Shown: positions 3,861 through 21,840 of the stretch, in pieces
How the letters are laid out: each line of letters begins with the position of its first letter
How positions within the stretch are numbered: the first letter of the stretch is position 1
Source of the DNA: Roseiflexus sp.
Lineage (GTDB): Bacteria > Chloroflexota > Chloroflexia > Chloroflexales > Roseiflexaceae
Direction: 5' to 3'
DNA length: 51,122 bases
NCBI GenBank assembly: GCA_025062325.1
Contig: JANXAL010000118.1
Location: 1-51,122, forward strand
The notes under the pieces: generated by a model
Seen by the model: the letters and a program-made list of their open reading frames with translations, nothing else
Databases searched by the model: none
Told to the model about the DNA's origin: nothing
Translations under genes and position numbers: made by a program

Positions 3861-5027
3861 ATGAAAATCACTCGTGTCTCGACCCTCGTTGTGCACGCAC
3901 GGATGCGCAACTGGATCTTTGTGAAGGTCGAAACTGACCAGGACGGTCTCTATGGCTGGGGCGAAGCGACGCTCGAATGGAAGACGAAAGGCGTGGTCGG
4001 CGCCGTCGAAGACGTCAGTCGCCTGATCATCGGCGAAGACCCCCGGCGCATTGAACACCTGTATCAGATTATGACTCGCCAGTACTTCTGGCGCGCTGGC
4101 ATCGAAGGGATGACCGCCATCAGCGGCATCGAGCAGGCGCTGTGGGATATCAAGGGCAAATGGTTGAACGTGCCGGTCTGTGAGTTGCTCGGCGGACGGG
4201 TGCGGGATCGGATTCGGGTCTATAACCATCTCGGCGGCGGCGAGATGGAGCAGATGTATGAGACGACCGATCCCCAACTGTTTGCTGAGCGCGCACTGGC
4301 AGTCAAAGAGCGGGGATACACGGCGCTTAAGTTCATGGCTGTGCCGCGGACGGAACCGATTGAGGGCATGCGCCCAGTACATTATGCCGAACGTCTGGTG
4401 CGCGCTGTGCGTGATGCAGTCGGCGATAGCGTCGATCTGATGGTCGATCTCCACGCCCGCTGCACGTCTCCGGCGATGGCGTTGCGTTACTGCCGCGCCT
4501 TTGAGCCGTATGGCCTGCTCTTCTTCGAGGAGCCATGCCCCAGCGAGGACATCGAAGCCACAGCTCAGGTCACCCGCGCATCGAACATTCCTATCGCCAC
4601 CGGCGAGCGCCTGGTGGGACGGCATCAATTCCGCGAAGTGTTCGAGCGACGCGCCTGTCACATCATTCAGCCCGATCTGTCGCACTGCGGCGGTCTGTGG
4701 GAAGCGCGCAAGATCGCCGCTATCGCCGAAGCGTATTCGATGGCGGTGGCGCCGCATAACCCGAACGGGCCGATTGCGACGGCGGCTGCCGTGCATTTTG
4801 CCGCCGCCACGCCCAACTGGGTGATTCAAGAGGCGATCAGCAATGATGTGCCCTGGCGGTACGATGTGGTCGACTCGGAGCACCACGTCCGGGATGGGTA
4901 CATTGCCGCGCCCTCACGCCCCGGGTTGGGCATCGAGGTGAATGAACGCGAGGCGGCGCGTCACCCATGGCAGCCGGAACTGGTGCAGCGCTATTTCCAT
5001 CCCGATGGTTCCGTGGCTGACTGGTAG
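3861..5027 (+). CDS. Enolase-superfamily sugar-acid dehydratase/racemase (galactonate-dehydratase-like)
   Basis: This 388-residue protein belongs to the mandelate racemase/muconate lactonizing enzyme group. The N-terminal capping domain (to about residue 115) precedes a TIM-type barrel. Candidate metal ligands are D196, E223 or E224 and E249. K157 is a possible base on one face, and D272 with H299 would form the His-Asp dyad on the other. H198 right after the first ligand and the PHNPNGP stretch around H299 resemble D-galactonate dehydratase. Such enzymes abstract the proton alpha to a carboxylate, then dehydrate or racemise. The exact substrate cannot be read from sequence. A paralogue lies at 12516. 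Expression is probably with the upstream transporter. Confidence 0.85.
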   Translation: MKITRVSTLVVHARMRNWIFVKVETDQDGLYGWGEATLEWKTKGVVGAVEDVSRLIIGEDPRRIEHLYQIMTRQYFWRAGIEGMTAISGIEQALWDIKGKWLNVPVCELLGGRVRDRIRVYNHLGGGEMEQMYETTDPQLFAERALAVKERGYTALKFMAVPRTEPIEGMRPVHYAERLVRAVRDAVGDSVDLMVDLHARCTSPAMALRYCRAFEPYGLLFFEEPCPSEDIEATAQVTRASNIPIATGERLVGRHQFREVFERRACHIIQPDLSHCGGLWEARKIAAIAEAYSMAVAPHNPNGPIATAAAVHFAAATPNWVIQEAISNDVPWRYDVVDSEHHVRDGYIAAPSRPGLGIEVNEREAARHPWQPELVQRYFHPDGSVADW

Positions 5028-5131
5028 GCGCGGCGGCGCGCTGCGTAGAAACAGGCGCACGCCGATGACCCGATTGTCACGGCGTAGACCGGGCTGATAC
5101 CGGCGATCTCGCAGCAACAAGAGGAAGCGCT

Positions 5132-6550
5132 ATGATGCGACGACTGCACGCCGGAGTCGCACGCACCGACATCACGCCGCCCCCTGGAATCGCCCATGCC
5201 GGGTGGGGCGCGCAGACCCATCAGCGGGCCGCTGGCGTCGATCTGCCGCTCTGGGCGACGGCGCTGGCGCTCTCCGATGGCGTTGAAACGGTGGTGATCG
5301 TTGATATTGACCTGATCTACATCTGGGACACGGAGGCGCCGGGCGTGGTGCAAGCCGTGAGCCAGGCGACCGGTCTGCCATCCTCACATATCCGCCTCGC
5401 CTACTCCCATACCCACTCCGGACCGATTAACGGCGCCACCTGGAGTTCGTGGGTGAAGGAAGGCGCCGAGATGACGCCTGCCTATGACGCGATTCTGGAA
5501 CATCATATCGCTGGCGTCGCCCGACAGGCGTTGCAACGGATGCGTCCGGTGCGCATTGCCGCCGGTTCCGGCGAGGCGCGGATCAACGTTAATCGGCGAT
5601 TTCAGCGACCCGGAGATGGCGCCGTAGTGTGCGGGCGCAATTGGGATGGCCCGGTGGATCATCAGGTGCAGGTCGTGCGGATCGATGATCTGGAAGGCGC
5701 GCCGCTGGCGGTGATCGTCAACTATGCCTGCCACCCGATTACGGTCGGTCCCGATTGCGACCTGATCACGCCCGACTATCCAGGGGTGATGAAGCGCGTC
5801 GTCGAGCAGTCCACCGGCGCAACATGCCTGTTTCTCCAGGGTGCGGCTGGCGATCTCGGACCGATCCGGGGCGTCGCCCGCGGCGGCCTGGCGGAGTACC
5901 GGCGGTTGGGCAGCATCCTGGGCCACGAAGTGAGCCGGATCTGGTGGGAGCTTGAACCGCAACGGCGGCGTGATCGCTACGTCGGTACGCTGGAGTCCGG
6001 CGCGCCGCTGGCCATCTACGAAGATGAACTCCTGCCTGACCTGGACATGACGCTCCGGGTCGGCGTGCGCGAGGTGCAACTGCCGCTGAAGCAGTTCGCT
6101 CCGGCTGCTGAACTGGCCGACGCGGCGGCGCAGCATATTGAGCGGCTCAACCGTCTGCGCGCCGAAGGCGGCGATCTGGAAGCGATCCGCACCGAGACGA
6201 TGCTGGCCAAGCGCGCCGGGATGCGCGCCGATCTCGCGCGCCGCAACGAGGGGCGCACCCACTGCAACGTGACATTGCAAACCTTCGCGATTGGCGACCA
6301 GATCGCCCTGCCAGCCGTGCCAGGCGAGCCGTTCTGTGAGATCGGCAGGCGCGTGAAGGCTGGCTCGCCCTTTCCGTATACCCTGTTCGCCGGTTATGCG
6401 AATATCGGTTGGGCGTACATTCCCACCGCTGACGCTTATCCGATGGGCGGCTACGAAATCGAGATCACGCCGTTTGCGCCCGAAGCCGCCGACATCCTGG
6501 TTGATGCAAGCCTGGCATTGTTGCGTGATGTGGCATCGGAGCGGCGCTGA
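5132..6550 (+). CDS. Neutral-ceramidase-fold hydrolase, paralogue 1
   Basis: This 472-residue protein matches the N-terminal domain of neutral/alkaline non-lysosomal ceramidases (the Ceramidase_alk fold). Zinc-site elements are visible: SHTHSGP with H93 and H95, NYACHP with H201, a PGEPFCEIG segment likely to give the acidic ligand, and the GYANIGWAYIPT tail motif. The ceramidase nucleophile motif (GDVSPN, with the catalytic Ser) reads GDLGP here (240-244), so the Ser is a Gly. That argues against ordinary ceramide hydrolysis. There is no signal peptide, so it should act in the cytoplasm. AGAGGAAG precedes tandem ATGs at 5132 and 5135. A second copy is at 10117. Confidence 0.8.
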   Translation: MMRRLHAGVARTDITPPPGIAHAGWGAQTHQRAAGVDLPLWATALALSDGVETVVIVDIDLIYIWDTEAPGVVQAVSQATGLPSSHIRLAYSHTHSGPINGATWSSWVKEGAEMTPAYDAILEHHIAGVARQALQRMRPVRIAAGSGEARINVNRRFQRPGDGAVVCGRNWDGPVDHQVQVVRIDDLEGAPLAVIVNYACHPITVGPDCDLITPDYPGVMKRVVEQSTGATCLFLQGAAGDLGPIRGVARGGLAEYRRLGSILGHEVSRIWWELEPQRRRDRYVGTLESGAPLAIYEDELLPDLDMTLRVGVREVQLPLKQFAPAAELADAAAQHIERLNRLRAEGGDLEAIRTETMLAKRAGMRADLARRNEGRTHCNVTLQTFAIGDQIALPAVPGEPFCEIGRRVKAGSPFPYTLFAGYANIGWAYIPTADAYPMGGYEIEITPFAPEAADILVDASLALLRDVASERR

Positions 6551-7418: not shown

Positions 7419-8210
7419 ATGAGCGCTGGACATTCGTCTGTTCGACTCTTTCATGAACTGACGCGCGACGATCTGCGCGCCGCTGGCGCGAATGCGCTGC
7501 TCATCCTCCCCGTCGCCGCCGTGGAGCAGCACGGTCCCCATCTACCCGTCGGCACAGATTGGATCATCGTTGAATATGTTGCACGCGCTGCCGCTGCTGC
7601 CGCTGCGCAATATATTCCGGTCATCGTCGCGCCGACCCTGCCATTTGGCTCATCAGATCATCACCTGCCCTTTAGCGGGACAATGTCGTTCAGTACAACA
7701 GCGTACTACCGGTTGCTCGTCGATATCGTCACCTCGCTGCACACTGGCGGCTTCCGGCGCATGTTCATTTTGAACGGCCATGGCGGCAACCATGAAATCA
7801 TTCAGTTGGTGGCGCGTGATATGGCGCTCCGGCATCCGCTGCGAATCGGCGCTGCCAGTTATTGGAACATTGCACGGGAGCGATTGATCGCCCTGGATGC
7901 CGATCACGGTCAACGTCTGCCCGGTCACGCTGGCGGTTTTGAGAGTGCGCTGATGCTTGCGTTGCGCCCTGAACTTGTGCGCCTGCCGTTGCCATCCCGC
8001 GCCTGGACGCAGGAGAATGACCCGTTGGAACCGGCGCTGCCATTCCGCCTGGAAATGCATGGATTCTGGCAAGCGATCGATGGGTACAGCGACAATCCGG
8101 CGCAGGCGACAGCGGAGCGTGGGCGCGTGTATCTTGACGCTATCGTTGAGGCGGTGACGCACGCCTTCCTGACGTTCGATACGGTGACTCGTGAAGGTTT
8201 CACACATTGA
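7419..8210 (+). CDS. Creatininase-family amidohydrolase
   Basis: This 263-residue protein has the creatininase-fold metal-binding motif VEQHGPHLPVGTD (E36, H38, D47) and the second motif NGHGGNHEI near residues 115-123. Family members hydrolyse cyclic amides or related C-N bonds (creatinine, formylated pyrimidine intermediates, mycofactocin precursors). None of those specific contexts is present. The setting here is a catabolic island with other hydrolases, so an amide or lactam intermediate is a fair guess. The last 20 bases overlap the GTG start of the decayed gene at 8191. Confidence 0.85.
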   Translation: MSAGHSSVRLFHELTRDDLRAAGANALLILPVAAVEQHGPHLPVGTDWIIVEYVARAAAAAAAQYIPVIVAPTLPFGSSDHHLPFSGTMSFSTTAYYRLLVDIVTSLHTGGFRRMFILNGHGGNHEIIQLVARDMALRHPLRIGAASYWNIARERLIALDADHGQRLPGHAGGFESALMLALRPELVRLPLPSRAWTQENDPLEPALPFRLEMHGFWQAIDGYSDNPAQATAERGRVYLDAIVEAVTHAFLTFDTVTREGFTH

Positions 8211-8583
8211 GACCTTGGAATTGCCGGTCATCCCTTTACAAAAGCGGGGATTGAGGCAGAACGGCGATATCTTTGGCACGGAAAGCCTGCACGAGCGCTG
8301 TCCCGGAGGCGCCTCCGGGCACGAAACGGACAAGACGAGCGCCTCATCGCCAGCAGGAACAGTTCTGCTTGCAAAAGGACTGAATCCAGACGATGGCGGC
8401 GCAGAGATGGTGTATTACGCCACAACCAGCAGCGGCGCCGTGTTCTCGGTCGGGTCGATCACCTGGCCGCTCGCACTGCTCGTCGATTCGCACGTATCAC
8501 GTATCACCTCACATGTCATCCGGCGCTTTCCGGGTGAGACAGAACAGCGCATTGCTCCATGCGGCGCAATCGGACACAGATGA
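8191..8583 (+). pseudogene. Fused remnants: enolase-superfamily start joined to dimethylformamidase-like C-terminus
   Basis: An open frame of 130 codons starts with GTG and overlaps the creatininase gene by 20 bases. Its first 15 residues (MKVSHIETLELPVIP) look like the start of a mandelate-racemase-type enzyme. From about residue 20 it resembles the C-terminal domain of the large subunit of N,N-dimethylformamidase-like proteins: LHERCPGGASGHETDK, then EMVYYATTSSGAVFSVGSIT and ALLVDSHVSRITSHVIRRF. A full dimethylformamidase subunit is several hundred residues. The simplest reading is a deletion that removed the body of two adjacent genes and joined the ends. Both matches come from memory of the families. 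Confidence 0.6.
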
Positions 8584-8902
8584 CCACGGGTACGACGGAT
8601 GAACATGGATGGACAGCAAAAGATCAATCCGCGGTCATCCGTCCCAAATCCGCGCCCATCCGTGCGTTATTCCGCAGCGCCAGGTTCCGCAGATCAGATG
8701 ATGCTTCTTTAGCTCATCAGCCCGCAGCGCTCCGGTAGACTCTGTCACATGATGACTTCCTCCGACTGTCTGAACATGCTTGACTTTTTGCGTGGATCCT
8801 GCTATGTTTTAGACGGGTCTGATCGCTATTGTCTGTTAATTGTCCCTTATTGTCTTGATTATGTCTGATGCTCTTTGTTCTTTCCGGCAAAGTGTCTAAG
8901 GC
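8584..8902. other. Gene-free spacer with CGGAT-type repeat and regulator upstream region
   Basis: Bases 8591-8676 hold a degenerate copy of the dispersed CGGAT/ATCCG palindrome family seen elsewhere in the window. Bases 8811-8866 hold an AGACGGGTCT dyad followed by four TTGTC-like direct repeats (separate entry). No coding signal was seen. Confidence 0.5.
8829..8865. promoter_or_regulatory. Four helically phased TTGTC direct repeats upstream of the GntR gene
   Basis: TTGTC occurs at 8829, 8840 and 8850, and ATGTC at 8861. The spacings are 11, 10 and 11 bases, one helical turn each. The array ends about 40-55 bases before the regulator start. Phased direct repeats of this type suit a regulator binding one face of the helix. 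Confidence 0.4.
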
Positions 8903-9889
8903 ATGGAAGATGCCAGCGTTATGACCGATCCTGTTGCGCGCAACGAAACGACGCAGCGCTCGCTGCGTGCAAGCGATATCGTGCATCTGCTAGAGCAACA
9001 GATTCGATCCGGCGCATACCGGTTCGGCATGCGTCTGCCAACCGTTCGTGACCTTGCCGAACAGTATCAGGTGAACAAGAACACTGCTGCGCGCGCGTAT
9101 CAGATACTTGAACAGCGCGGGTTGATCGAGGTCTCGCGCGGACGCGGCGCATTTGTTTGCGCCAGATCCGAGTCGGATCAACCAACATTGCAACAGCAGG
9201 TTGAACGGTTGGTTCAGGCGGCCCGGCAGGCGGGGTTGAGCCGCAGCCAGTTGCTCGACTTGATCGACAACGCCGTGCACCAGTCGTATGGTTCCGAAGC
9301 GCCGCGCGTGTTATTCGTCGAGTGCAACCGGCGCGATGTGGAGACGCTTGGCGACGAGCTTGAGAGCATTGTTGATACGCCAATGGATCGGGCGCTGCTT
9401 GATGATGTTCTGCGCGATCCGATCACGCTGGTGCATCGATACGATCTGATCGTGACCACCTTTCAGCATCTGGGACAGATTCGCCAGGCTGTGCCGTCTG
9501 CCGCGCGCCAGCGAGTGGTCGGCGTGCTGGCGACTCCGTCTCACGAGTCGTTGCTGGCGCTCGCGCGCCTGCATGTGCCTTCGTTCGGTCTCGTTTGCGA
9601 CTCGCCGGGAACGATTGAGAGTCTGTCTCACATTATTCGCACCTATCACCCAACCTCAAGTGTTATCCCTGTGCTGATTGATGATCGGACCCGCCTCTAC
9701 GAGATGATTGAGCAGGTTGATGCACTGGTGGTCACGCGCTCATGCCGCGAACGCCTGCTTGCGCTGAATCCTGTGCTCCCTGTGATTACCGTCGTGTTCA
9801 CTATTGATCAGCAATCGATTGATTTCTTACGTCGCCGTCTCGAGGAAACAGCGCAGATCAACGCCCTGCAACCACGGATGTCACGATAG
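8903..9889 (+). CDS. GntR-family transcriptional regulator
   Basis: This 328-residue regulator has an N-terminal GntR winged helix at about residues 22-90, including RLPTVRDLAEQYQVNKNTAARAY cut around LPTVRDLAEQ and the wing GLIEVSRGRGAFV. The C-terminal 200 residues do not match a FadR, HutC or aminotransferase domain that I can name with confidence. They may be a periplasmic-binding-like or otherwise novel effector domain. ATG 8903 and ATG 8921 are both possible starts. Its place in the middle of the catabolic island, and the GntR-type operator at 126-147, make it the probable local regulator. Confidence 0.85.
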   Translation: MEDASVMTDPVARNETTQRSLRASDIVHLLEQQIRSGAYRFGMRLPTVRDLAEQYQVNKNTAARAYQILEQRGLIEVSRGRGAFVCARSESDQPTLQQQVERLVQAARQAGLSRSQLLDLIDNAVHQSYGSEAPRVLFVECNRRDVETLGDELESIVDTPMDRALLDDVLRDPITLVHRYDLIVTTFQHLGQIRQAVPSAARQRVVGVLATPSHESLLALARLHVPSFGLVCDSPGTIESLSHIIRTYHPTSSVIPVLIDDRTRLYEMIEQVDALVVTRSCRERLLALNPVLPVITVVFTIDQQSIDFLRRRLEETAQINALQPRMSR

Positions 9890-9967
9890 AGGCAGGCGAA
9901 GAGGGACAGCCTCCGGTTCTTCTGAACCATACACACGATCACCGAGAAAGCGTCCGTATGATGATAT

Positions 9968-10070
9968 GGAGTTTGAGAAAATAACCCGGTATTGCCCGAT
10001 ATAGCCCGCGCAAGCAGGCTTCGCAACCGTCGCCCGCGACTTCAGGCGCCGGGCGGGTAAGCGGATAGCG
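9968..10070 (+). repeat. MITE-like dispersed repeat, copy A
   Basis: This 103-base stretch aligns along its length with 44637-44739. Shared blocks include GGAGTTTGAGAA at the left end, TAGCCCGCG in the middle and GCGGATAGCG at the right. The terminal inverted repeat that is clear in copy B is weak here. It lies between the GntR gene and the second ceramidase-fold gene. Confidence 0.65.
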
Positions 10071-10116
10071 AAATAATGACTAAAAACCATACAAGGCGCC
10101 AGAAGCGAGGAAGCGC

Positions 10117-11496
10117 ATGGATCTGACGCGAATTCATGGGTTTACCTATTGTGCGGTCGGTGTTGCGCGCCGGGATGCGACGCCGCCCGTCGGCATCTAT
10201 GCGCGCTCATGGGCGGCGGCGCGCCACGATGTCGCTGAAGGCGTGCATCGACCGCTGACGGCGACGGCGCTGGTGATGCGCCCCATTCACGCGGATGCTT
10301 CGACGCTGGCGCTGATAGCCCTTGATGTGGGCTGGTTTCCGTACCTTCCCGATGAACGTCGCGTCCGCGAGTCCGTCCTGCGCGCCACCGGGCTGGACGA
10401 AGATGCGTTGCTGATCAATTTCTCGCATACCCACGCGGGAGCACACCTCAATACTCAGATCAGGGATAAACCCGGCGTGCATTTGATCGAACCGTACCTT
10501 AACGATCTGACCCATGCGCTCATCGAGGCGATTATTGAAGCCAGAAGCGCGATGCGCCCGGCGTGGATCACCTACGGGTACGGGCGCTGTGCGCTGGCGG
10601 CGAATCGCGATTTCTGGGCGCCGGACATCGGCAGATACGCCTGCGGCTACAATCCTGCGGCGCCTGCTGATGATACAGTGCTCGTCGCCCGCGTGACCGG
10701 CGAGGATGGCGCGATCATTGCCACGCTGGTCAACTACGCCTGCCATCCGACGACTCTCGCCTGGCAGAATCGATTACTTTCGCCGGATTATGTCGGCGCT
10801 CTGCGCGAAACGCTCGAGTCGATCTATGGCGCGCCCTGCCTGTTCCTCTACGGCGCTGCGGGCGATCTCGGTCCGCGCGATGGGTTTGTGGGCGATCCTG
10901 CCATTGCTGATCGGAACGGCCGCCAGCTGGCGTATGCCGCTGCGGCGGCGCTTGAGGCGCTGCCTCCGCCTGCCTCGCGCTTCGTCTACACCGGCGTGGT
11001 TGCGTCAGGCGCCAACCTGGCAACCTGGGAGTACCAACCGCTCGATGCGTTCGCCCGAAGGCGCTGCGCGATACTGCATTATCACAGAACGATCGTGCCG
11101 CTGCCACGTAAGCCGACGCTTGAGCCGATTGATCCGCCAGGGTCTGATCGCAGCGATGCGATCGCCGAGGCGGAGAAGGCGCTGCGTCGCCGCCTGCTTC
11201 AGGACTCCCTCGGCGATGATCCGGTCTACCCTATGACGCTCTGGTTCTGGCGGTTAGGCGACGCCCTCCTTGTGGCATGTCCCAACGAAGCGTATTCTCA
11301 AATGCAGATTGAGATCCGCTCCCGGTTTTGTCGTCAACCGGTGCTGGTGCTGGGATGCACGAATGGTGCGTTGGGCTATCTCCCGCCCCGCCATGTGTAT
11401 GGCAGCGGTCTGTATCAGGAGCAACAGTCTCCTTTTCTTCCCGGCTGCCTCGAGCAAACAATTGCCGCTGCCATAAGTGAATTGGAGCGCCTATGA
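10117..11496 (+). CDS. Neutral-ceramidase-fold hydrolase, paralogue 2
   Basis: This 459-residue protein is a divergent paralogue of the protein at 5132 with the same landmarks: ARRDATPPVGIYARSW at the N-terminus, SHTHAGAH with H104 and H106, NYACHP with H210, and GAAGDLGP at 246-253. As in the first copy, the position of the ceramidase nucleophile Ser is Gly. No signal peptide is visible. It overlaps the deacylase gene by four bases (ATGA), so the two are translationally coupled. The coupling supports a sequential two-step hydrolysis in one pathway; the substrate is unknown. Confidence 0.8.
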   Translation: MDLTRIHGFTYCAVGVARRDATPPVGIYARSWAAARHDVAEGVHRPLTATALVMRPIHADASTLALIALDVGWFPYLPDERRVRESVLRATGLDEDALLINFSHTHAGAHLNTQIRDKPGVHLIEPYLNDLTHALIEAIIEARSAMRPAWITYGYGRCALAANRDFWAPDIGRYACGYNPAAPADDTVLVARVTGEDGAIIATLVNYACHPTTLAWQNRLLSPDYVGALRETLESIYGAPCLFLYGAAGDLGPRDGFVGDPAIADRNGRQLAYAAAAALEALPPPASRFVYTGVVASGANLATWEYQPLDAFARRRCAILHYHRTIVPLPRKPTLEPIDPPGSDRSDAIAEAEKALRRRLLQDSLGDDPVYPMTLWFWRLGDALLVACPNEAYSQMQIEIRSRFCRQPVLVLGCTNGALGYLPPRHVYGSGLYQEQQSPFLPGCLEQTIAAAISELERL

Positions 11497-12500
11497 GCAC
11501 AACGCAGATCGTGACCCTGGTTGATTTCGAGAAGCCTGGCAAGCAACTGGGACGACTGGCTATTCCGCAATCGACCAACACCTCGGGGTGGGCGACGGAA
11601 TATCTGCCGATTGCGGTGATCAATGGCGCGCCGGGACCAACGGCGCTGCTCTTTGGCGGCAACCACGGCGATGAGTATGAAGGACCGGTGACGCTGTTGA
11701 AACTGGCGCATACGCTTGAACCGGACAGCATTCGCGGGCGAATCATTATGCTCCCAATGTTGAACCGTCCGGCGCTTGCCGCTGGCGCCCGGTTGTCGCC
11801 TCTTGATGGTAAAAACATGAATCGGGTGTTTCCCGGACGCGCCGACGGAACCATTACCGAGATGATCGCGCATTACGTCACGACGGTGCTCTTCCCGCTG
11901 GCCGATCTGGTGATCGATATCCACTCCGGCGGACGGTCGGCGCACTTTCTGCCGCTGGTCAGCATGCATCACGTTCCCAACACCGAACAGTTGCGCGCCA
12001 TGATCGATCTGGCGCTGGCATGGGGAGCGCCCTACATCCTGATCTACCGCGATGTAGGCGGCACGGGGCTGTTGCCCGGCGAAGCCGAACGTCTGGGAAA
12101 GCTGACGCTTGGCACAGAAATGGGCAGCGCCGCGCAGTTTGGCGTCGAGATGCTCAACCTGACAGAGCAGGGGGTGCGCAATGTGCTGCGTCAGGCAGGC
12201 ATGCTCATCGACCGGGCGCCCGATCCGCCGCCAGCGCCGCCGCAGCTTATGGCAGCGGATCAGTATGACGACTACATCATGGCGCCGGTCAGCGGCATCT
12301 TTGAACCGTTTGTCGAAATGGGCGCATGGATAGTTGCAGGCCAGACGATTGGCCAGATCCATTCCATCGAGCAGCCCTTCGAGCCGCCGACGCCGGTATC
12401 AGCACGAACGGAAGGCTTGCTGATCAGCCGACGCGCGTTCCCTCTCGTGCGTCAGGGCGATTGCCTGGCAACGCTCGCACGACCGTTTCGCCTGCCATAG
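11493..12500 (+). CDS. Aspartoacylase/succinylglutamate desuccinylase-family deacylase (DoeB-like)
   Basis: This 335-residue zinc hydrolase belongs to the AstE/AspA branch of the carboxypeptidase-A-like fold. The zinc motif GGNHGDEYEGP gives H58 and E61, and VIDIHSGG near residue 150 supplies the third ligand. A C-terminal beta domain follows (from about 255). The GGNHGDEYEGP form is reminiscent of N-acetyl-diaminobutyrate deacetylases of ectoine breakdown, but no other ectoine genes are nearby. The reaction is therefore best stated as removal of an N-acyl group from a carboxylate-bearing amine. It overlaps the preceding gene by four bases and is followed 15 bases on by an enolase-superfamily gene. 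Confidence 0.82.
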   Translation: MSTTQIVTLVDFEKPGKQLGRLAIPQSTNTSGWATEYLPIAVINGAPGPTALLFGGNHGDEYEGPVTLLKLAHTLEPDSIRGRIIMLPMLNRPALAAGARLSPLDGKNMNRVFPGRADGTITEMIAHYVTTVLFPLADLVIDIHSGGRSAHFLPLVSMHHVPNTEQLRAMIDLALAWGAPYILIYRDVGGTGLLPGEAERLGKLTLGTEMGSAAQFGVEMLNLTEQGVRNVLRQAGMLIDRAPDPPPAPPQLMAADQYDDYIMAPVSGIFEPFVEMGAWIVAGQTIGQIHSIEQPFEPPTPVSARTEGLLISRRAFPLVRQGDCLATLARPFRLP

Positions 12501-12515
12501 CACAAGGAGAAGCGT

Positions 12516-13628
12516 GTGAAAATTACTGATGTCGAAGCCATCTGGCTCCAACTCCCGACCGTAGACGACCGCGCCGACGGCACTCAGGATACGCTGGTGG
12601 TCAAAGTCCACACCGATGAGGGGATCGTCGGCGTTGGCGAAGTCGACTCGTCGCCGATGGCAGCGAAAGCGATCATCGAGGCGCCAATGTCCCATCAGAT
12701 TGCGCGTGGTCTACGGTTGTGCGTCCTTGGTGAAAACCCGCTCGACATCGCCCGCCTGTGGCACGCCATGTATCAGGGGTCAATCTTCTTCGGGCGCGGC
12801 GGCGCGGTGCAGCAGGCGATCAGCGGCATCGACATCGCGCTGTGGGACATCGCCGGCAAGGTGATGGGTCAGCCGGTCTATCGGTTGCTCGGCGGCGGCT
12901 TCCGCGACCGCCTGCGCGCCTACGCCTCGATCCTGTTCCAGGAGACGCCCGAAGCGACCTATGACCTGGCCCGCCGCCTCGCCGACCAGGGATTTACGGC
13001 GGTCAAGTTCGGCTGGGGACCGATTGGGACAGGCGAGACGATGGATCTGGCCCTGGTGCGAATGGCGCGACGTGGATTGGGGGATGACATCGATCTGATG
13101 ATTGACGCTGGACTGTGCTACGATACGGCGACGGCGATCCGGCGCGCGCACCAGTTTGCGGAATACAACCCATTCTGGCTCGAGGAGCCGCTGCACCCCG
13201 ACAATCTTGAAGGGTACGCGCGTCTGGCTGCTGTGTCCCCCATCCGTATCGCCGCCGGGGAGCAGGAAACCACACTTGCCGGGTTTCAGGCGCTGATGGA
13301 CGCCGGTCTGTCGGTAGTGCAGCCGGACGTGGCGCGGGTCGGCGGGTTGTCGCAGGCGATCCAGATCGGGCGGATGGCGGCGCAACGCCATCGGCTGTGC
13401 GTCAATCATTCGTACAAAACCGGCATCAGCATTGCCGCCTCGCTGCACTTCCTGGCGGCGCTGCCAAACGCTTCGCTGCTTGAGTACTGCGTCGAGCAGA
13501 GTCCGTTGCGGCAAACGCTGACCCGCGAAACTTTTCCGGTAGTGGATGGATGGGTGGCTGTGCCGCAAGAGCCAGGGCTGGGCGTCACCCTCGATGAAGA
13601 GGTGATCGCCCGCTATCGCGTGGCATGA
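12516..13628 (+). CDS. Enolase-superfamily enzyme (mandelate racemase/muconate lactonizing type), paralogue 2
   Basis: A 370-residue protein starting at GTG 12516, supported by AAGGAGA at 12504-12510. The capping domain runs to about residue 120 and the barrel follows. K164 sits in VKFGWGP as a candidate base. D197, E223 or E224 and E249 are candidate metal ligands, and D271 with H298 would form the His-Asp pair. The VKFGWGP stretch differs from the VKxK of true mandelate racemase, so specificity is open. It is only distantly similar to the 3861 protein, so the two probably act on different intermediates. It ends 13 bases before the truncated amidohydrolase. Confidence 0.85.
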
Positions 13629-13641
13629 CCAGGGAGTTCCG

Positions 13642-13713
13642 ATGATCATCGACGTGCATACCCACGCCTCACAGTATCGCAGTCCCGTGCCGCCGGGGCG
13701 TGAGGGAACTTAA
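13642..13713 (+). pseudogene. Truncated amidohydrolase (first ~15 codons)
   Basis: ATG 13642 opens MIIDVHTHASQYRSP, the beginning of a TIM-barrel amidohydrolase with its DVHTH metal motif, preceded by GGGAG at 13632-13636. The frame is lost after about 15 residues and stops at 13711-13713. The rest of the gene has been replaced by the ParA-containing segment. This looks like the break point of an insertion or deletion at the end of the catabolic operon. Confidence 0.65.
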
Positions 13714-14061
13714 GTATGGTCCACGCCGGCGTCGGTTGAGCGGACAAGAAATGTCGAGTTGCGGCTCAGAGCGCGCCAGGAAGTGCTTAATGGCGCGGTA
13801 GACCGTGTACTCCAGGTCGCCGGGCCGCAGCCCAGGCGCCTGGGTCAGGTTCCCCTGCGGATCGAAATTGACCAGTAACACGCGCTGCCCGCGTTCAGCG
13901 AGCGCCGCCTTCAGGTTGATGGTCGTGGTGGTTTTGCCGGCGCCGCCCTTGGGGACGGCCACGGCGATGATGCGGGCGCCGTCGCACGGCAGACGTGCGG
14001 ATGGCTTCGGTTGCGGTGCGCGTCGCCCGCCGTCGCGGAGAAAGCGTTTCACCTCGTCCAT
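13669..14061 (-). pseudogene. Truncated ParA/Soj-family ATPase
   Basis: Reading from ATG 14061 on the minus strand, the frame begins MDEVKRFLRD. It has the deviant Walker A motif KGGAGKTTTT (38-47) and continues NLKAALAERGQRVLLVNFD and GNLTQ. It resembles ParA to about residue 104 (near base 13750) and then runs into unrelated sequence, with a stop near 13669. A complete ParA is about 250 residues or more, so roughly two thirds is missing. The frame is open upstream to 14361 but that part looks non-coding. ParA suggests plasmid or element ancestry. No intact ParB follows. Confidence 0.75.
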
Positions 14062-14689
14062 CAGCCCGCAGCGCGCCAGGCGTCGCACCAGACGCCGGAA
14101 GGAACGGCGGCGATTGCGGGCGAACACGCTATCTCCCCGCGCAACTGATCGTCCCTGAGCCTGTAGCGGTCCCGCAGGGCTTGCCTGATCTGAGTCAGGG
14201 CTAACGAAGCCTAAACTATGTATTGTACCGCAAGGTTCGCCCGCTGCCCGCTCGGCGAACCTTTGCCGGTGCGCATCAACCCGCAGCGCCGGGAAGCTGT
14301 CTGACAATTTCACGCCCAGACCTCCACACTCCCACCCCGCGCCGTTCGGCCTTTGCCGCACCTATCCGACACTGCACGCGGCGGAAGCAAAGCAGAAGCG
14401 GCGGACGTCTCCCGACCAGCGCTGACGCAGTGATCGCGTGCGGTATACCCCTGCCAGTGATGAAATGGGCGACTATATTAAGACCTCGGGACCGTTCAAA
14501 ATGCCGGAGTCGCGGCATAATCACTATGAGTCCTGAGTGCGCGCGCGGCGGGGCGAACAACAACGTGTTCCAACCGCTGGAGTCGCGGCATGATCACACG
14601 AGGGCAGTCTGACTTCTGCCGCGCTTGAACGGCGGACGAATGCTCACAGGGCGAATGGACTCCGATGAAATTGTAAAAGGAGGTATCTC
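14062..14689. other. Gene-free stretch in the ParA/CRISPR-like scar
   Basis: I see no convincing gene. The stretch holds the two-unit CRISPR-like vestige at 14494-14603. It ends with a strong AAAGGAGGT ribosome binding site for the 14690 gene. Confidence 0.5.
14494..14603 (+). CRISPR. Two-unit CRISPR-like vestige
   Basis: Two similar units start at 14494 and 14567, exactly 73 bases apart. Each is about 31-37 bases: GTTC followed by a variable A/C-rich section, then GGAGTCGCGGCAT and ATCAC. That leaves a spacer-like gap of about 36 bases. Each unit can form a hairpin (ATGCCG/CGGCAT in the first, CCGC/GCGG in the second). Spacing, size and hairpin fit repeat-spacer-repeat. The units differ at several positions, no third unit was seen, and no cas gene is in the window. 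A decayed array end is likely; an unrelated hairpin repeat is possible. Confidence 0.4.
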
Positions 14690-16138
14690 ATGCCTGCCAA
14701 CGCACTGCTTCTGGCCGCGATATTTGGCGATGACATGTCCGATCTTGCTCAATTCGTGAATCGCGGGAAGGACATCCAGTTTCTGCTCCTGGCCGTGACT
14801 CGCAACGACGCACACGGCCAGAATGCGTGCAATGCATACCTGCGCATCGCTCTGGCTGCCGCTGGAGGCGCCGATCTTCCGAACAATCTGAAGCAGGAGT
14901 TGGCGCAGCATGCGCCAGATGTTCTAAAACTTCTGGCGCAAAACAATGCGCAGGACCTGCGCCAGGCGCTCATCCGGCGCTCAGACTGGGTACGCGCATT
15001 TCTGACAGCGCTCGTGCCGCCAGACAGCGCCACGACAGGTTGGTTTGGTACGCTGTCTAATGGGGCGCGCCGGGTGCTGGTTGAGCTCGCTTCGAGCGAT
15101 GCTACCGCTGCCGCTGATATGCTTGCGGCGCTCGGCAACAACGGCTGGCAGACGTTCCTCAATCACGGAGAGCGCGCGGCTCTTATCGATGCTGCCGCAT
15201 GTCAGGCGAACACAGCACGTAGGGCGCTTGCTGTATTCTGTCCCGTTCTCAATACTCTCGATCCACAATTCCGCAATCGCCTGTTTCACAAAGTTATCAG
15301 CGACCCTTATGCTGCTGCGGATCTGGTTGAGGATCTGGTTGGAGCTCCTGGCATGAACGCATGGCAATCGCTGACGAGCTATGAACGTCAGCTTGTGATC
15401 GATGCCGTTAAGCAATCTGCTTCGACCGCGAAAAGGGTGCTTGTCGCTTTGTTCCATTCGCTTGATCGCACCGAGCGCAAGAAACTTATTGATGCACTTA
15501 CGAGCCCTACCCTATACGCCTACGCCGTGAACGACGTACTTGTCGCACTGTTTCATGACCTTAGTGATGATGAGCGTGATCAACTGCTGCGCGCCGTCGC
15601 CGAAAGCGACCCCAGCGCTGTTCGTCGCCTGGTTGTCAAACTTGGTTTTAGAGAATGGCAGACGTTGACCCGCGACCAACAACGCATGCTGCTGCACAAG
15701 CTCACCTGCTTGACGGCATGGCTGCCTGACGCTAACGCAGATTTGATCGACGTCTGGCAAAGTGCGTTGCTGCAACTGCCTACAAACGAGCGCGATGACT
15801 TGATCGACGCTATTGCCAACAACGAGAGCGACTCTCTTTGCTTTATCGCGGGACTCGGCGCCGACGGATGGCAACAGCTGACCCGCGACCAACAACGCAT
15901 GCTGCTGCGCAAGCTCATCTCGCAGGAGGATGTCGCCGCCTATCTGCGGCACAAGAACGTCGTCTGGCACGACTGCCTGGAAGCATGGCTGCCTGACGCT
16001 AACGCAGATTTGATCAACGCCTGGCAAAGCGCGTTATATAACGGACAGTTACCACCAAACGTCTCGGCTATCATCGCCCTATTGTTTCCACGCACCTCTT
16101 CCTGCCGACAGAGGAGGCATTCGACTAGACAACCATGA
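14690..16138 (+). CDS. Unrecognised helical-repeat protein
   Basis: This 482-residue protein has an excellent AAGGAGG site ten bases before ATG 14690. I cannot assign it to a family. From about residue 123 it is built of degenerate helical units with a pattern W-Q-x-L-[ST]-x-x-[EQR]-R-x-[LV]-[LI]. Examples are WQTFLNHGERAALIDA, WQSLTSYERQLVIDA, WQTLTRDQQRMLL and WQQLTRDQQRMLL. Intervening segments have the form STAKRVLVALFHSLD. This suggests a HEAT/ARM-like solenoid. Two units near the C-terminus are nearly identical in DNA (15673-15703 with 15880-15910, and 15717-15768 with 15984-16035), so duplication is recent. There is no signal peptide or membrane helix. It overlaps the next frame by four bases. 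Confidence 0.7.
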   Translation: MPANALLLAAIFGDDMSDLAQFVNRGKDIQFLLLAVTRNDAHGQNACNAYLRIALAAAGGADLPNNLKQELAQHAPDVLKLLAQNNAQDLRQALIRRSDWVRAFLTALVPPDSATTGWFGTLSNGARRVLVELASSDATAAADMLAALGNNGWQTFLNHGERAALIDAAACQANTARRALAVFCPVLNTLDPQFRNRLFHKVISDPYAAADLVEDLVGAPGMNAWQSLTSYERQLVIDAVKQSASTAKRVLVALFHSLDRTERKKLIDALTSPTLYAYAVNDVLVALFHDLSDDERDQLLRAVAESDPSAVRRLVVKLGFREWQTLTRDQQRMLLHKLTCLTAWLPDANADLIDVWQSALLQLPTNERDDLIDAIANNESDSLCFIAGLGADGWQQLTRDQQRMLLRKLISQEDVAAYLRHKNVVWHDCLEAWLPDANADLINAWQSALYNGQLPPNVSAIIALLFPRTSSCRQRRHSTRQP

Positions 16139-16398
16139 CACCACGCCTTCTGCGTCGGCGGAGGAGTGCTGGCTCATCGCCTGCCGCGGATCAATGCAGC
16201 GCTGGACGCGCTGTAGTCAGGCGCGCTGTTCCCACAAGGCAAACAGTGACTGCCTTCTTCGCCTCCCACGAGGCGCTCACGCCCGTGATCGCGCTCCTGG
16301 AGCGCGCCGCTCCCGATCAGATTCGCACGTTGGCCCGGCTGCTGGAGCGCGTGACCGCTGAAACGCGTGATGCGCACCCGCTGCCCGGCGCACCGTGA
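16135..16398 (+). CDS. Small hypothetical frame, probably a decayed gene
   Basis: An 87-codon frame overlaps the helical-repeat gene by ATGA. Its C-terminal half (FFASHEALTPVIALLERA, then DQIRTLARLLERVTA) looks like genuine helical protein. The N-terminal half does not. Another frame of the same bases (from about 16163) reads GGVLAHRLPRINAALDAL before a stop. Two reading frames with protein-like content in sequence suggest a frameshifted remnant rather than an intact gene. I do not recognise the family. Confidence 0.3.
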   Translation: MTPRLLRRRRSAGSSPAADQCSAGRAVVRRAVPTRQTVTAFFASHEALTPVIALLERAAPDQIRTLARLLERVTAETRDAHPLPGAP

Positions 16399-16711
16399 TC
16401 TCCTTCGATACGTCAGGCCGCGACGAACAGATCGGGGGTGGACGTGGTTCGGTTGCTCCCGTCCGGTCACTGTGACGCTCGGCGTCGCCGCCAGGGGGTG
16501 ACAGCAGCGCCGCCCCTTTGGCGACATTCTGGCAAGATTGGGGGGCGCAAGCGCCGCGTGCGCTGCCAGGACGGGACGCGCCCGACGGACACGCTCTTCG
16601 GCGCCAGAGCGCCAATAATCTGCTACACTGCCATTGCATCACGAAACGTGATCGCCATCTGGCGCGTATGTATGAGGTGTAAACAGGTGCAACAAACAGA
16701 GGTGAGCCGAT
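16399..16711. other. Gene-free spacer
   Basis: I see no gene in this stretch. It ends with GAGGTGAG (16699-16706) as ribosome binding site for the SPFH gene. A possible -10 box TACACT lies near 16624. Confidence 0.4.
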
Positions 16712-18235
16712 ATGAACCGTCTTCAACGCAGTCTGGAGCTTGCCCGGCAAATGCTCGAACGCGGCGACGCCGAGCAGCTTCAGATCAAAGCCAGCGATTT
16801 TCTGTCGCAACGTTCACCTGGTGAGAGCGGCGCCACCCGCATTGAGCAGATGACCGCGCTCCTGGAAGAAGCGGCGGAGCTGCTCAATCGCAACTTTCAG
16901 CAACCGGAAAGAGGCGGGCAGGTCACGAATATCATTTCGCCGGTCGTTATTCCGCGCAATCCACGCTCGGCAGGCTGGATCTTCGTTACCGTGTTCCTGA
17001 CCATCCTTGGTCTGACCGGCTGGCTGATCGGCGCAGCGGTTGATTTTGTCTTGTTCGGTCTGACGAACTTCGCCACGGTCTTCTTCGGTCCGCACTACTG
17101 GCTGCTGATCGCTGGCTACGTCGCCTACAGCCTCTGGCGCAACAGCTTTATCATGGTGCCGGATGGCTGTCTGGCATTGATCACCCGCTTCGGCAAACTG
17201 GAAGAGATCGCGCCAGCGGGCCGCAAAATACTGCTCGATCCGTGGAAACGTGTCAGTTACATCGTCAACGTTACTCGCGAGTACCCCTACAATGCACCGA
17301 TCCGTGAAGCGCCAACCGCCTCGCGCGTGAATGCTTCGGTCGATCTGTTCCTTCAGTTCAAGATCGAAGACCCGGCAGCGTTTATTTTCACCCTGGGCGG
17401 CGCCAAGGGATTCCAGGAGAAGCTGCAAAACGCGGTTAGCGAGGTGACCCGCGCCCTCATTTATGAGCAGCGCGCCGAAGCGATCTATGATCTGGTCGGC
17501 GAGAGTACACAGGGTTTGCTCGATTCGCTCAATCAGCAGTTCCTGCCTGCCGTGCGCTTTGTCAACGCCAATATCACCCACGCCGAGCCGTCGAGTCAAG
17601 AGTACCGCATCGACCTCGCCAAACCGGAGATGATCCGGGTGGCGAAAGAGGCGTACACGTATGAGTATGAGCTGGCGTTGCGCAAGGAGCAGGACGAGGG
17701 GGACCTCAACCGTGAGCTGGCGGGACTGCGCGAGCAACTCTCCGCCATTCAGGCTGAGATTGCCACCTACCAGGCGCAGATCGACACGGCGCGCGAACGG
17801 GAGATCTACCGCGCGAACGCCTATGCCAGCCAGTTGTTGAGCGAAGCCGAGAGCGCTGCGCGCGCCAATGCAGCGCTGCTCGAAGCGCAGGCGCTCGACA
17901 TTCGCGCCGTCGGCGCCGCCGCCTACCCGGAGATTTTGCAGTATCGCTACCAGCAGGACATTCTCGACCGGCTGGAGGCGGTTGCCGACCACCTGCCGCA
18001 GATTGTACAGATTGGCAAGGGTGACGAGAAGGACATCGATTATCTGGCGATTGCACAGCGGATGCTGGGCGTCGGTGACACGCAACTCTACTCTCCCGAA
18101 GATGTGGCTGCAATCCGCGACCGTTTGCACGTCATCCAGCAACGTATTCAGGCACGTGCTGGACAGATCGGACAATTGACCGCTGTTGAAAAGGAGACAG
18201 CGCAGACCAAAGAAAGAGAGACCGCCAATGGCTGA
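16712..18235 (+). CDS. SPFH/Band 7 membrane protein 1
   Basis: This 507-residue protein begins with about 85 soluble, partly helical residues rich in Glu and Arg. Two membrane segments follow near 90-112 and 128-145. An SPFH (stomatin/prohibitin/flotillin/HflK) domain from about 148 (FIMVPDGCLALITRFGKLEEIAPAG) runs to about 330. A long Ala/Glu/Gln-rich coiled coil covers 335-410. Such proteins form large ring or cage assemblies in the membrane and often control proteases or membrane microdomains. The gene overlaps the next SPFH gene by eight bases, so the products likely form a hetero-oligomer, as HflK and HflC do. It lacks HflK-specific features that I can point to. Confidence 0.85.
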   Translation: MNRLQRSLELARQMLERGDAEQLQIKASDFLSQRSPGESGATRIEQMTALLEEAAELLNRNFQQPERGGQVTNIISPVVIPRNPRSAGWIFVTVFLTILGLTGWLIGAAVDFVLFGLTNFATVFFGPHYWLLIAGYVAYSLWRNSFIMVPDGCLALITRFGKLEEIAPAGRKILLDPWKRVSYIVNVTREYPYNAPIREAPTASRVNASVDLFLQFKIEDPAAFIFTLGGAKGFQEKLQNAVSEVTRALIYEQRAEAIYDLVGESTQGLLDSLNQQFLPAVRFVNANITHAEPSSQEYRIDLAKPEMIRVAKEAYTYEYELALRKEQDEGDLNRELAGLREQLSAIQAEIATYQAQIDTAREREIYRANAYASQLLSEAESAARANAALLEAQALDIRAVGAAAYPEILQYRYQQDILDRLEAVADHLPQIVQIGKGDEKDIDYLAIAQRMLGVGDTQLYSPEDVAAIRDRLHVIQQRIQARAGQIGQLTAVEKETAQTKERETANG

Positions 18236-19478
18236 CGCGCGACGCACATTTTCTCGCATCAAGGAAACGGTCGCCGCCTGGAGCGAGATCCGGCAACTGC
18301 TCCGTTCAGGCGAAGATGGTCAACTGGTGCCGGTGGTCATCCCGCGGAGCCGACGGCGTCTGGGATGGCTGCTGCCGCTGGGATTGAGCGTTTACCTTAC
18401 CGGTGTGGCTGTCTTTAGCGGCGGATTCTTTGGCGTTTTCGTCGGATTTTTCGCCCTGATCGCCTTTGTTGCCGCTGTCGTTTCCTTCATCACCGGAGCG
18501 ATTGTCGAGATCGAGCAGGGAACCACTGGCATTCTCTCGCGCTGGGGGCAGATCGTCGGCACGCTTGCTCCTGGTCGGCACTATCTCTGGCGGCCCTGGG
18601 AGAAAGTGGAGGCAGTGGTCGATACCAGCACTGAAATACCGTACACTGCGCCGGTGCTGGCGTCGCCGACCCGCGAGAATATTCCGCTCAAGTCGATTGA
18701 GTTCTTCCTCAAGTTCCGTATCGAAGACCCGATCGCGTTTGTGCGACGCCTGGGCGCCAGCAACTTCGATCTGGTGCTGAGCAGCGCTGTGCAGGATGCG
18801 ATCCGCCAGCGGGCGCGGCGCGTCGAAACTGAGCGCGCCTACGATCTGCGCGGCAGTGACGTGGGTGATATGCAGGAGTTGCTCAACCGCCAGTTGGCGC
18901 GGTATGGCGTGCGGATTACCGGCGCCAACATTCCCAATGTCCAGTTGCCCGATCAGTACCAGCAGCATCTGGCGACGCGCGAACGGGTGACGAAAGAATT
19001 GCAGGCGTATGAGCGCGAATGGGAGTTGATCAAGAAGCAGCGTATTGACAGTATGCGGCTGGAGATCGAGCGCGCCAGAAAGGTGCGCGATGCCAAACTG
19101 GTGGAGGTGCGCGCTGCCATCAATCAAGCGCGTCAGGACGTGGCGCGCATGCTTCAGGAGAAAGAAACTGAGGCGCAGCGCGTGCGCTGGGAGATTGAAG
19201 CGCGTGGCCGCGCGACCCTGCGGCAGGCCGAGAACGAGGCGCGCGGACTGGAATATCTCGGTCGGGCGTATCAGGACAACCGGGCGGTCTTGCAGTATGA
19301 ACTGGCGCGCCGTCGCCTGCAGGTCGCCGAGGCGCTGGTCAAACGCGCGCCGCGCCCGATTGTCATTCAGAGCGATGGGGGCGATCAGTCGCCGCTGACG
19401 ACGTTGATTACGGCGCAATTGCTTCCCCAACTGACATCCCGCCAGGACGACGCGGATACGCAGAGCACGTCCAGTTGA
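18228..19478 (+). CDS. SPFH/Band 7 membrane protein 2
   Basis: This 416-residue partner of the preceding protein starts at ATG 18228, inside the last codons of the upstream gene (ATGGCTGA overlap). An earlier in-frame ATG at 18186 would add a non-family, basic peptide and is less likely. A Gly/Phe/Val-rich membrane region covers about residues 44-95, including FFGVFVGFFALIAFVAAVV. The SPFH domain follows (IVEIEQGTTGILSRWGQIVG onward), then a charged coiled coil (about 260-360). The C-terminus is short and polar. Tight coupling with gene 1 suggests an obligate pair. No protease or FtsH gene is adjacent. Confidence 0.85.
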   Translation: MADARRTFSRIKETVAAWSEIRQLLRSGEDGQLVPVVIPRSRRRLGWLLPLGLSVYLTGVAVFSGGFFGVFVGFFALIAFVAAVVSFITGAIVEIEQGTTGILSRWGQIVGTLAPGRHYLWRPWEKVEAVVDTSTEIPYTAPVLASPTRENIPLKSIEFFLKFRIEDPIAFVRRLGASNFDLVLSSAVQDAIRQRARRVETERAYDLRGSDVGDMQELLNRQLARYGVRITGANIPNVQLPDQYQQHLATRERVTKELQAYEREWELIKKQRIDSMRLEIERARKVRDAKLVEVRAAINQARQDVARMLQEKETEAQRVRWEIEARGRATLRQAENEARGLEYLGRAYQDNRAVLQYELARRRLQVAEALVKRAPRPIVIQSDGGDQSPLTTLITAQLLPQLTSRQDDADTQSTSS

Positions 19479-19494
19479 CGAGCACAGGGGAGAG

Positions 19495-19687
19495 ATGGAC
19501 AGAGAGATCACATACCTGAATACCGATCTCAAGCTGACCTCGACTGATGACCTGACAATGCTCGCCAGCGCGCTTGAGTCTGGAGGTGCTGCGGCGCATA
19601 GCGGCAGTTGGCGCGTCGCTGCGCATCACGCTCTATCCTGCGGATCAGCGCGATGCGCCAGGGCCAGCGTCGTGTCGGGCGCCTACG
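19495..19687 (+). pseudogene. Small hypothetical gene with internal deletion and frameshift
   Basis: ATG 19495, with AGGGGAGAG just before it, opens a protein-like start MDREITYLNTDLKLTSTDD that runs to about 19570. From about 19575 the adjacent +1 frame instead reads SLEVLRRIAAVGASLRIT and LYPADQRDAPG before its stop at 19685-19687, which also looks like real protein. The two halves resemble the beginning and end of one longer conserved hypothetical protein from which the middle has been lost. I cannot name a function. Confidence 0.45.
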
Positions 19688-19706
19688 CGCGACTTGTCGT
19701 GACAGA

Positions 19707-19804
19707 ACACGGACTCACACGGATGCGACGGATTCATACGGATCTGCTTATGGCGGAAGGCAATCAGTCTTTGTGAGTTCGCCTCAATCCGTGTGAGTCT
19801 GTGT
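19707..19804. repeat. CGGAT-type palindromic intergenic repeat
   Basis: The left arm (ACACGGACTCACACGGAT at 19707-19724) matches, inverted, the right end (ATCCGTGTGAGTCTGTGT at 19787-19804). The stretch can thus form a long imperfect hairpin. The same word set recurs near 8591-8676, 40943-41112, 42673-42708 and 50000-50025. Confidence 0.6.
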
Positions 19805-20016
19805 ATTTCCATTCACCACGCTCACGCGCGATGAGCATGCCAGACCGCCGAAGCATCTAACCTCCTGACAACTCGCAACGACACCCTTGTGTCGGATGTC
19901 GGATCAATATGACGTGAGCGCTGTTTCTGAGATTTTCTCGTAGACTCCTGCTCTACTTATTATTGAACCGCGTCGCAGGGGAAATCGAGCGACGCTTGTG
20001 CTCTTTAAGCGTGCCT

Positions 20017-21840
20017 ATGGATCAGTTCCATCATCTCTGGCCCTTTGTGCGGCGCTACCGCCGGCGGTTGCTAATCGGCGCGCTGTGCGCTATGGCAGCG
20101 ACCGCCGTCGCTGCCATGATTCCGCAGATCGTGCGCTTCGCCGTTGATGACCTGAATACGCGCGGCGTCGTGCTTGATCGCTTATTGCAGTACGGCGGAT
20201 TGCTGCTACTTACTGCGCTTGTTGAGGGGGTCCTGCGTTATGGGCAGCGCACCCAGATCATCGGAACGTCACATCTGATCGATTTCGACATGCGCGAGGC
20301 GTTGTTTGCGAAATTGTTGACGCTCGATCAGGGGTTCTTCACCACAATGCACACCGGCGACCTGATGACGCGGGTGACGAATGACCTCTCGGCAGTGCGC
20401 ATGTTCCTCGGTCCTGGCGTCAGCAACCTGCTCGGTTCAATGCTGCTGCTGCTGACTGCTGCGACATTGATGTTTCTCACAAACCCGACGCTAGCGGCGA
20501 TTGTCGTCCTGCTCCTGCCGATGGCGGCAGTGCTGTTCGTTGTGATCGGCGGGCGCATGCGCGTGATTTTCCGCAAGGTGCAGGATCAGTTCGGCGAGAT
20601 TTCAACCCGCGCCCAGGAGAACTTCAGCGGCATCCGCACGATCAAGGCGTATGCTCAGGAGGACGCCGAGATCCGCGTGTTTCGGGAAGCCAACGAACGC
20701 TACCGCGCGCTCAACCTGCGCTATGTGCTGCTCAGCGGTATGCTCTGGCCCATCATCGGGTTGATGCTGGGGGCGATTGGCGCGTTTGTGCTACTTGTCG
20801 GCGGGCGCATGGTTGCAGCCGGTGAAATGACGGTCGGTGAACTGGTGCTGTTCAATGCGTACCTGGCGCAACTCGCCTGGCCCGTCATCGCGCTTGGGTG
20901 GACGGTGGACCTCTACCAGCAGGGAGCGGCGTCGCTGGTGCGTATCAGCGAGGTGCTGCAGCGCCGTCCCGCGATTGCCTCGCCGCCCGACGCACCGCGC
21001 GACTTTGTGGTGCGCGGGGAGGTCGAGTTTCGCAATGTCGGGTTGCGGTTTTCGTATAGTCAGAGCGCGAATGGCGACTCATCCGCGCATCCCGCGAGTG
21101 CACCCTCGCCGCACGCCCAACCATCCGTTGCAGGTGCGTCCGAATGGGTGCTGCGCCACATTTCGTTCCGCATCCCGCAGGGAGGTTCGCTGGGGATCGT
21201 CGGCGCAACCGGCGCCGGCAAGACCACCCTGGTCAACCTGCTGGCGCGCGTGCGCGATCCCGACGAAGGGCAGGTGCTGGTCGACGGGTTTGATGTGCGC
21301 ACCCTGCCGCTCGCTGCGCTGCGTCGCGGTATCGGCTACGTACCGCAGGATACCTTCCTGTTCAGCGTGCCCATCCGCGAGAATGTCACCTTCGGCAGAC
21401 CGGATGCGACCGAAGAGCAGATCGCTCACGCCCTCGCCGTCTCGCGGTTGGTCAACGATATTGAGCAGTTTCCCAACGGGATTGACACGCTGATCGGCGA
21501 GCGCGGCGTCACCCTGTCCGGCGGGCAGAAGCAGCGCACCGCTATCGCGCGCGCCATTTTGCGCGACCCGGCGATCTTGATCCTTGACGATGCTCTATCG
21601 AGCGTCGATGCGCACACTGCCGCCGAGATCCTTGCCGGTCTGCGCTCGATCATGAAAGGGCGCACCAGCATCATCATTGCGCAGCGGATTGCGACGGTGA
21701 AGGACGCCGATCAGATCATCGTGTTGCACAACGGTGAGATCGTCGAGCGCGGCACGCACCGCGAATTGCTTGAACGCGGCGGACGGTACGCCGATATGTA
21801 TCGCCGGGAGCTGCTGCGCGCCGAATTGGAAGAAGAGTAG
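20017..21840 (+). CDS. Heterodimeric ABC exporter half, degenerate catalytic site
   Basis: This fused membrane-ATPase half-transporter has 607 residues from ATG 20017; an earlier in-frame start at 19963 is less likely. The type I exporter membrane domain covers about residues 10-300. The ATPase domain has Walker A GATGAGKT at 396-403, a canonical signature LSGGQ at 500-504 and ILILDDALSSVD. In that last motif the catalytic Glu after Walker B is Asp525. The partner encoded three bases downstream has the reverse pattern. This is the arrangement of heterodimeric exporters such as TM287/TM288. The substrate is unknown; lipids or drugs are usual. Confidence 0.9.
   Translation: MDQFHHLWPFVRRYRRRLLIGALCAMAATAVAAMIPQIVRFAVDDLNTRGVVLDRLLQYGGLLLLTALVEGVLRYGQRTQIIGTSHLIDFDMREALFAKLLTLDQGFFTTMHTGDLMTRVTNDLSAVRMFLGPGVSNLLGSMLLLLTAATLMFLTNPTLAAIVVLLLPMAAVLFVVIGGRMRVIFRKVQDQFGEISTRAQENFSGIRTIKAYAQEDAEIRVFREANERYRALNLRYVLLSGMLWPIIGLMLGAIGAFVLLVGGRMVAAGEMTVGELVLFNAYLAQLAWPVIALGWTVDLYQQGAASLVRISEVLQRRPAIASPPDAPRDFVVRGEVEFRNVGLRFSYSQSANGDSSAHPASAPSPHAQPSVAGASEWVLRHISFRIPQGGSLGIVGATGAGKTTLVNLLARVRDPDEGQVLVDGFDVRTLPLAALRRGIGYVPQDTFLFSVPIRENVTFGRPDATEEQIAHALAVSRLVNDIEQFPNGIDTLIGERGVTLSGGQKQRTAIARAILRDPAILILDDALSSVDAHTAAEILAGLRSIMKGRTSIIIAQRIATVKDADQIIVLHNGEIVERGTHRELLERGGRYADMYRRELLRAELEEE

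Follow-up and report, generated by a model that had tools for sequence, protein, structure and literature searches.

The locus

The window, by which we mean the whole stretch of 51,122 nucleotides of Roseiflexus sp. DNA analyzed here, contains an open reading frame of 482 codons at positions 14690–16138 of its forward strand, with no internal stop. An ORF carrying a truncated ParA remnant lies to its left, and its right neighbours are two adjacent proteins of the SPFH/Band-7 type (16712–19478). The features of the locus are collected in Table 1.

Table 1. Features in and around the helical-repeat gene, in window coordinates.
Feature	Positions	Strand	Basis and remarks
ORF with truncated ParA/AAA_31 remnant covering 62 of the 177 profile positions	13669–14361	-	Profile match; in G002 at 99%
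Dispersed repeat copy, in several genus members	14071–14202		Genus DNA comparison
Pair of 31-base direct repeats (84% alike) separated by 73 bases	14494–14597		DNA self-comparison
Ribosome-binding site region	14678–14692	+	AGGAGG at 14678–14683, 6-base spacer, ATG; read from sequence
Helical-repeat protein P0001, 482 aa	14690–16138	+	Coding-like codon use; all-alpha by AlphaFold2; family-less
Six consecutive repeat units, residues 122–321, two helices each	15053–15652	+	Profile matches, leave-one-out
Duplicated block, first copy, short form (54 bases fewer)	15655–15768	+	DNA self-comparison
Seventh scored unit, residues 363–393, between the duplicate copies	15776–15868	+	Profile matches, leave-one-out
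Duplicated block, second copy, long form	15868–16035	+	DNA self-comparison
C-terminal tail	16036–16138	+	Negative codon log-odds, low pLDDT, basic run at end

The gene at 14690–16138 is real. With six flanking genes as the reference, the codon log-odds of its frame are positive from the start to about position 15960 and turn negative thereafter (about 15960–16138); the C-terminal tail may have decayed or been altered. The opposite-strand frame also gives positive log-odds in places, yet it is interrupted by stops. The ribosome binding site had been called optimal in a preliminary description of this DNA, and the arrangement found at the start codon bears this out. From its sequence the gene would be expected to be expressed. 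A promoter scan upstream returned a single 9-of-12 match, at 14451–14479, which is no evidence of function.

In composition the gene stands below its neighbours, with a G+C content of 56.8% against 59–64% in the six flanking genes, and a GC3 of 61% against 69–77%. Over 14661–16138 the G+C content is 56.4%, compared with 60.7% for the whole window. The GC3 value is not extreme, as another long ORF of the window (33238–35565) stands at 0.613.

A short ORF of 87 amino acids (16135–16398, forward strand) overlaps the end of the gene by 4 bases. It has no Pfam support and is possibly debris; a MarR-like remnant suspected by eye at 16150–16398 was likewise dropped, Pfam lending it no support.

The surrounding DNA

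The gene appears to lie on a private stretch of about 2 kb that is unmatched elsewhere in the genus, since comparison of 14661–16711 with genus DNA gave no match, 22 bases excepted. A mis-joined contig may explain this stretch. To the left, positions 2412–6464 and 8195–14660 are 98.8–99.8% identical to the closest relative, G002, while values of 92–96% (18902–20435) and 86.6% are found in other stretches. The near-identical left block is possibly a recently exchanged block of metabolic genes, or a binning artefact. The G002 contig stops at 14660, 30 bases short of the gene, and absence from G002 is therefore unproven. Wherever a check was possible in other members of the genus, the left and right flank genes were found apart: G005 and G003 have the right flank with different genes upstream of it, G004 has the left flank with a different gene downstream, and in G001 the two flanks are on separate contigs. 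The SPFH/Band-7 pair itself is kept together in G001, G003 and G005.

The preliminary description placed the gene in a scar of mobile DNA. This is borne out in part. The surroundings fit an insertion or rearrangement scar, and may be one: the truncated ParA fragment matches a phage/plasmid-type ParA family, and it is accompanied by the dispersed repeat and the unmatched DNA. The adjacent proteins that were scanned included no recognisable transposase, integrase or phage structural gene.

Several further observations concern these elements. Longer relatives of the ParA fragment are present elsewhere in other genus members. G000, G002 and G005 carry copies of the dispersed repeat. In G003 a 32-base segment of it recurs at many sites, with spacings of 66 and 213 bases among them (L062). 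The repeat family is G+C-rich, and it is also represented in the window at 44479–44999. A CRISPR origin of the direct repeats at 14494–14597 was dropped because the genome contains their 21-base core at these two places alone, allowing up to 2 mismatches.

Repeat units in the protein

Residues 122–393 of the protein are covered by seven or more units, each about 34 residues long. When the protein was compared with itself, the best ungapped off-diagonal score was 101 (offset 89), whereas 200 shuffles reached 51 at most; the next scores were 77 (offset 71) and 54 (offset 33). With the part duplicated at the DNA level excluded (leaving residues 101–322) the best score is 54, at offset 33, and the shuffle maximum 41. 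The repeat profile was built from seven hand-cut units, making its tiling of 122–393 circular; the units were therefore withheld singly, each being scored against 1000 shuffles. Units 2, 4, 5 and 6 were matched by none of the shuffles, and units 1 and 7 were reached by 3 and 6 of them, respectively. Unit 3 fails, being reached by 123. Thus the internal repeats claimed earlier are beyond chance in the self-comparison, and six of the seven withheld units recur with the length of 30–40 residues looked for in an alpha-solenoid.

The units have a consensus core LxxxERxxLIDA...A...L..L followed by a second helix, and the invariant positions are L and R alone. The motif originally put forward, W-Q-x-L-T-x-x-x-R, is matched exactly by one unit (WQSLTSYER), but it is not the common core. 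Relative to this motif both duplicated units have one extra residue before R, and WQ is absent from several units; WQxLTxxxR is thus a looser feature of some of them.

An internal duplication of DNA

The duplication noted earlier near 15673–15768 and 15880–16035 is resolved into two pairs of blocks, each 89% identical. The first, of 53 bases, is found at 15655–15707 and 15868–15920 (spacing 213), and the second, of 63 bases, at 15706–15768 and 15973–16035 (spacing 267). These are best read as one tandem copy of 213 bases (71 codons) together with an indel of 54 bases (18 codons). The reading frame is kept across the duplicated blocks, and the indel is in-frame. In both blocks pS exceeds pN (0.19/0.08 and 0.21/0.19), on very few sites, and the pN of 0.19 is inflated because the count for that block, D1, takes in two codons beyond the matched block.

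The idea of active repeat expansion is not sustained. There is a single duplication, whose copies differ by 54 bases in length, and its divergence of about 11% marks a past event and is not evidence of ongoing expansion. The duplication itself is supported, as one moderately old event.

Predicted fold and structural neighbours

The protein is predicted to be an alpha-solenoid of no specific family. AlphaFold2, run on the single sequence, gives an all-alpha superhelix for the whole protein with pLDDT 65.4 and pTM 0.58; for residues 95–325 alone these values are 77.7 and 0.69. Ten-residue blocks over residues 121–210 have pLDDT values of 84–91, with one exception of 79, and in the whole-protein model pLDDT falls below 50 for residues 1–49 and 413–482. 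Because in both predictions only two of the five models stood clearly above the remaining three, the fold is not certain. The prediction nonetheless contains the tandem helix-turn-helix units, arranged in a superhelix, that are expected of an alpha-solenoid.

A Foldseek search of the PDB with the whole model gave six matches at E ≤ 0.001, with designed and natural solenoids on top, and TM-scores among the matches listed were at most 0.41. The core model gave no match in the PDB at E ≤ 0.001, and the same was true of a search of viral structures. Among the matches listed by VIA-align, the A subunit of PP2A was best both for the whole model (Z 11.4, rmsd 7.8, 315 aligned) and for the core (Z 8.6, rmsd 6.1, 219 aligned), where a Z under about 13 may be merely a common arrangement for repeat proteins. 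The structural neighbours are helical solenoids of the HEAT, PUF and ARM kinds, and the likeness is diffuse, with scores in the generic-repeat range. Sequence searches against solved structures yielded nothing convincing; matches to protein A, with E values of 0.006 or more, extended over a portion of a single unit and were taken as chance.

No Pfam or NCBIfam model reached its curated cut-off with the protein, and HEAT, ARM and PUF are absent among the 13 Pfam models listed at E ≤ 10. Matches in PHROGs are short and weak, and a PADLOC scan matched 0 families. In this respect the first account of the protein, as a helical solenoid without a recognised family, holds.

How does it compare with the closest known systems? 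Like the HEAT scaffolds, exemplified by the PP2A A subunit, it is predicted to have two-helix units stacked into a superhelix, but the identity is 11–14%, there is no HEAT profile match, and Z lies in the generic-repeat range. It resembles the PUF (Pumilio) proteins in its superhelix and in a unit length near their 36, with Z up to 10.4; in contrast to them it is acidic and lacks a PUF profile match. Each PUF unit is built of three helices and carries residues that contact bases (PMC11514114). A PUF member would be expected to have three RNA-contacting residues per unit, and the present model is too uncertain for side chains to be placed. MgtE_N (PF03448) likewise has short helical repeats and scores 15.1 bits with the whole protein and 18.0 with the core, but these are below its cut-off of 25.9 bits and no CBS or transporter-domain match is listed in the Pfam scan.

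Residues 290–371 match DUF3106 (PF11304) weakly, at 21.7 bits against a cut-off of 24.3, and the match is gone when residues 281–400 are scanned alone. Neither that real 120-residue piece nor any of the control pieces (one reversed, two of five shuffled and three block-shuffled) matched DUF3106. A DUF3106 search of 60 genomes, its own included, missed the gene, and membership was rejected. Nothing relevant was found in the literature on DUF3106 or on alpha-solenoids of Roseiflexus, where print coverage may be wider.

The search for relatives

How widely is the protein distributed? A whole-genome search of 60 relatives at E ≤ 0.01 matched four genomes, its own among them, and one of 400 genomes of the phylum at E ≤ 0.001 matched two, of which one was its own. 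The non-self matches, three in the smaller set and one in the larger, were rejected on their reading frames, which we take to be those of a glucoamylase-type enzyme, an alpha/beta hydrolase, the antisense of an FtsK-like gene and a pectate-lyase-like protein. With residues 101–393 as query, the sole match in 158 genomes of the class was again its own, and there were none in 47 genomes from another class of the phylum. These sets of 60, 400, 158 and 47 genomes overlap and all come from one phylum. The repeat profile found one match besides its own genome among 20 genomes; this lies in what is presumably a DNA-methylase-like frame and was rejected as chance.

There was no match in 50,697 phage and 72,556 plasmid records. 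Scans of genome and viral contigs, by which alone other phyla were covered, found no relative; they use exact short peptide patterns, and only close relatives are therefore visible to them. The protein is apparently an orphan, with no relative in any collection searched.

A probable binding scaffold, and its alternatives

With a probability of about 0.55, we read the gene as encoding a cytoplasmic alpha-solenoid that acts as a binding scaffold, lies on private DNA, was horizontally acquired or is fast-evolving, and has grown by tandem duplication. Its short two-helix units, at least seven and perhaps nine or ten, would stack into a superhelix, and a peptide, protein or nucleic-acid partner most likely docks on its grooved surface, making the protein a non-catalytic scaffold. 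By analogy with the fold class, whose members usually bind partners, this role is plausible, and is the likeliest guess. The lower G+C content relative to the neighbours suggests that the gene was probably acquired horizontally; otherwise it may be evolving too fast for relatives to be recognised. The repeat array would have grown at least once, by the 213-base in-frame tandem duplication, the copies later diverging by the 18-codon indel. If functional, the protein would be a small and tractable repeat scaffold with its last duplication still readable in the DNA, and could aid the study of how bacteria build new binding proteins. If not, it is one orphan gene among many.

We suggest only tentatively that this is a lineage-restricted alpha-solenoid with a repeat class of its own that has gained units by in-frame duplication on a newly arrived DNA island; it would be a natural case of a bacterial binding scaffold arising or diversifying through repeat duplication.

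It is rather doubtful that the gene is a decaying relic, that is, a repeat gene that arrived with a mobile element and is no longer under selection, its 3′ end damaged and its duplicated units made to differ by random indels. A relic would be consistent with the adjoining ParA remnant and dispersed repeat, the negative log-odds and basic tail at the C-terminal end, the 54-base difference between duplicates, and the fact that no conservation is seen in orthologues, none having been found. Yet there are 482 stop-free codons with mostly positive log-odds, the ribosome-binding site is intact, and the indel preserves the frame.

Unlikely, too, is a highly diverged but ordinary member of a HEAT/ARM or MgtE_N-like family that the profiles have missed. 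While PP2A-A heads the structural matches for both models and MgtE_N reaches 15–18 bits, every profile score is below its curated cut-off, and the Z values and TM-scores remain in the low range given above. A solenoid that binds nucleic acid in the manner of PUF, each unit touching a base or phosphate, is improbable: the net charge of -6 is unfavourable for a nucleic-acid surface and no PUF profile matches, and although PUF domains turn up repeatedly in the structural comparisons and the units have 30–40 residues, the likeness to PP2A-A, importins and others is at an equal level. Modular DNA-binding solenoids comparable to the TAL-effector class were also considered and set aside.

An anti-phage defence or counter-defence factor is very improbable. 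The accessory, apparently strain-restricted nature of the gene and the nearby phage/plasmid-type ParA fragment are set against the lack of any match in PADLOC or in the phage and plasmid records, and a scan of neighbouring proteins brought up no defence gene. Of the accessory roles first proposed for the protein, interaction or defence, it is interaction that is plausible.
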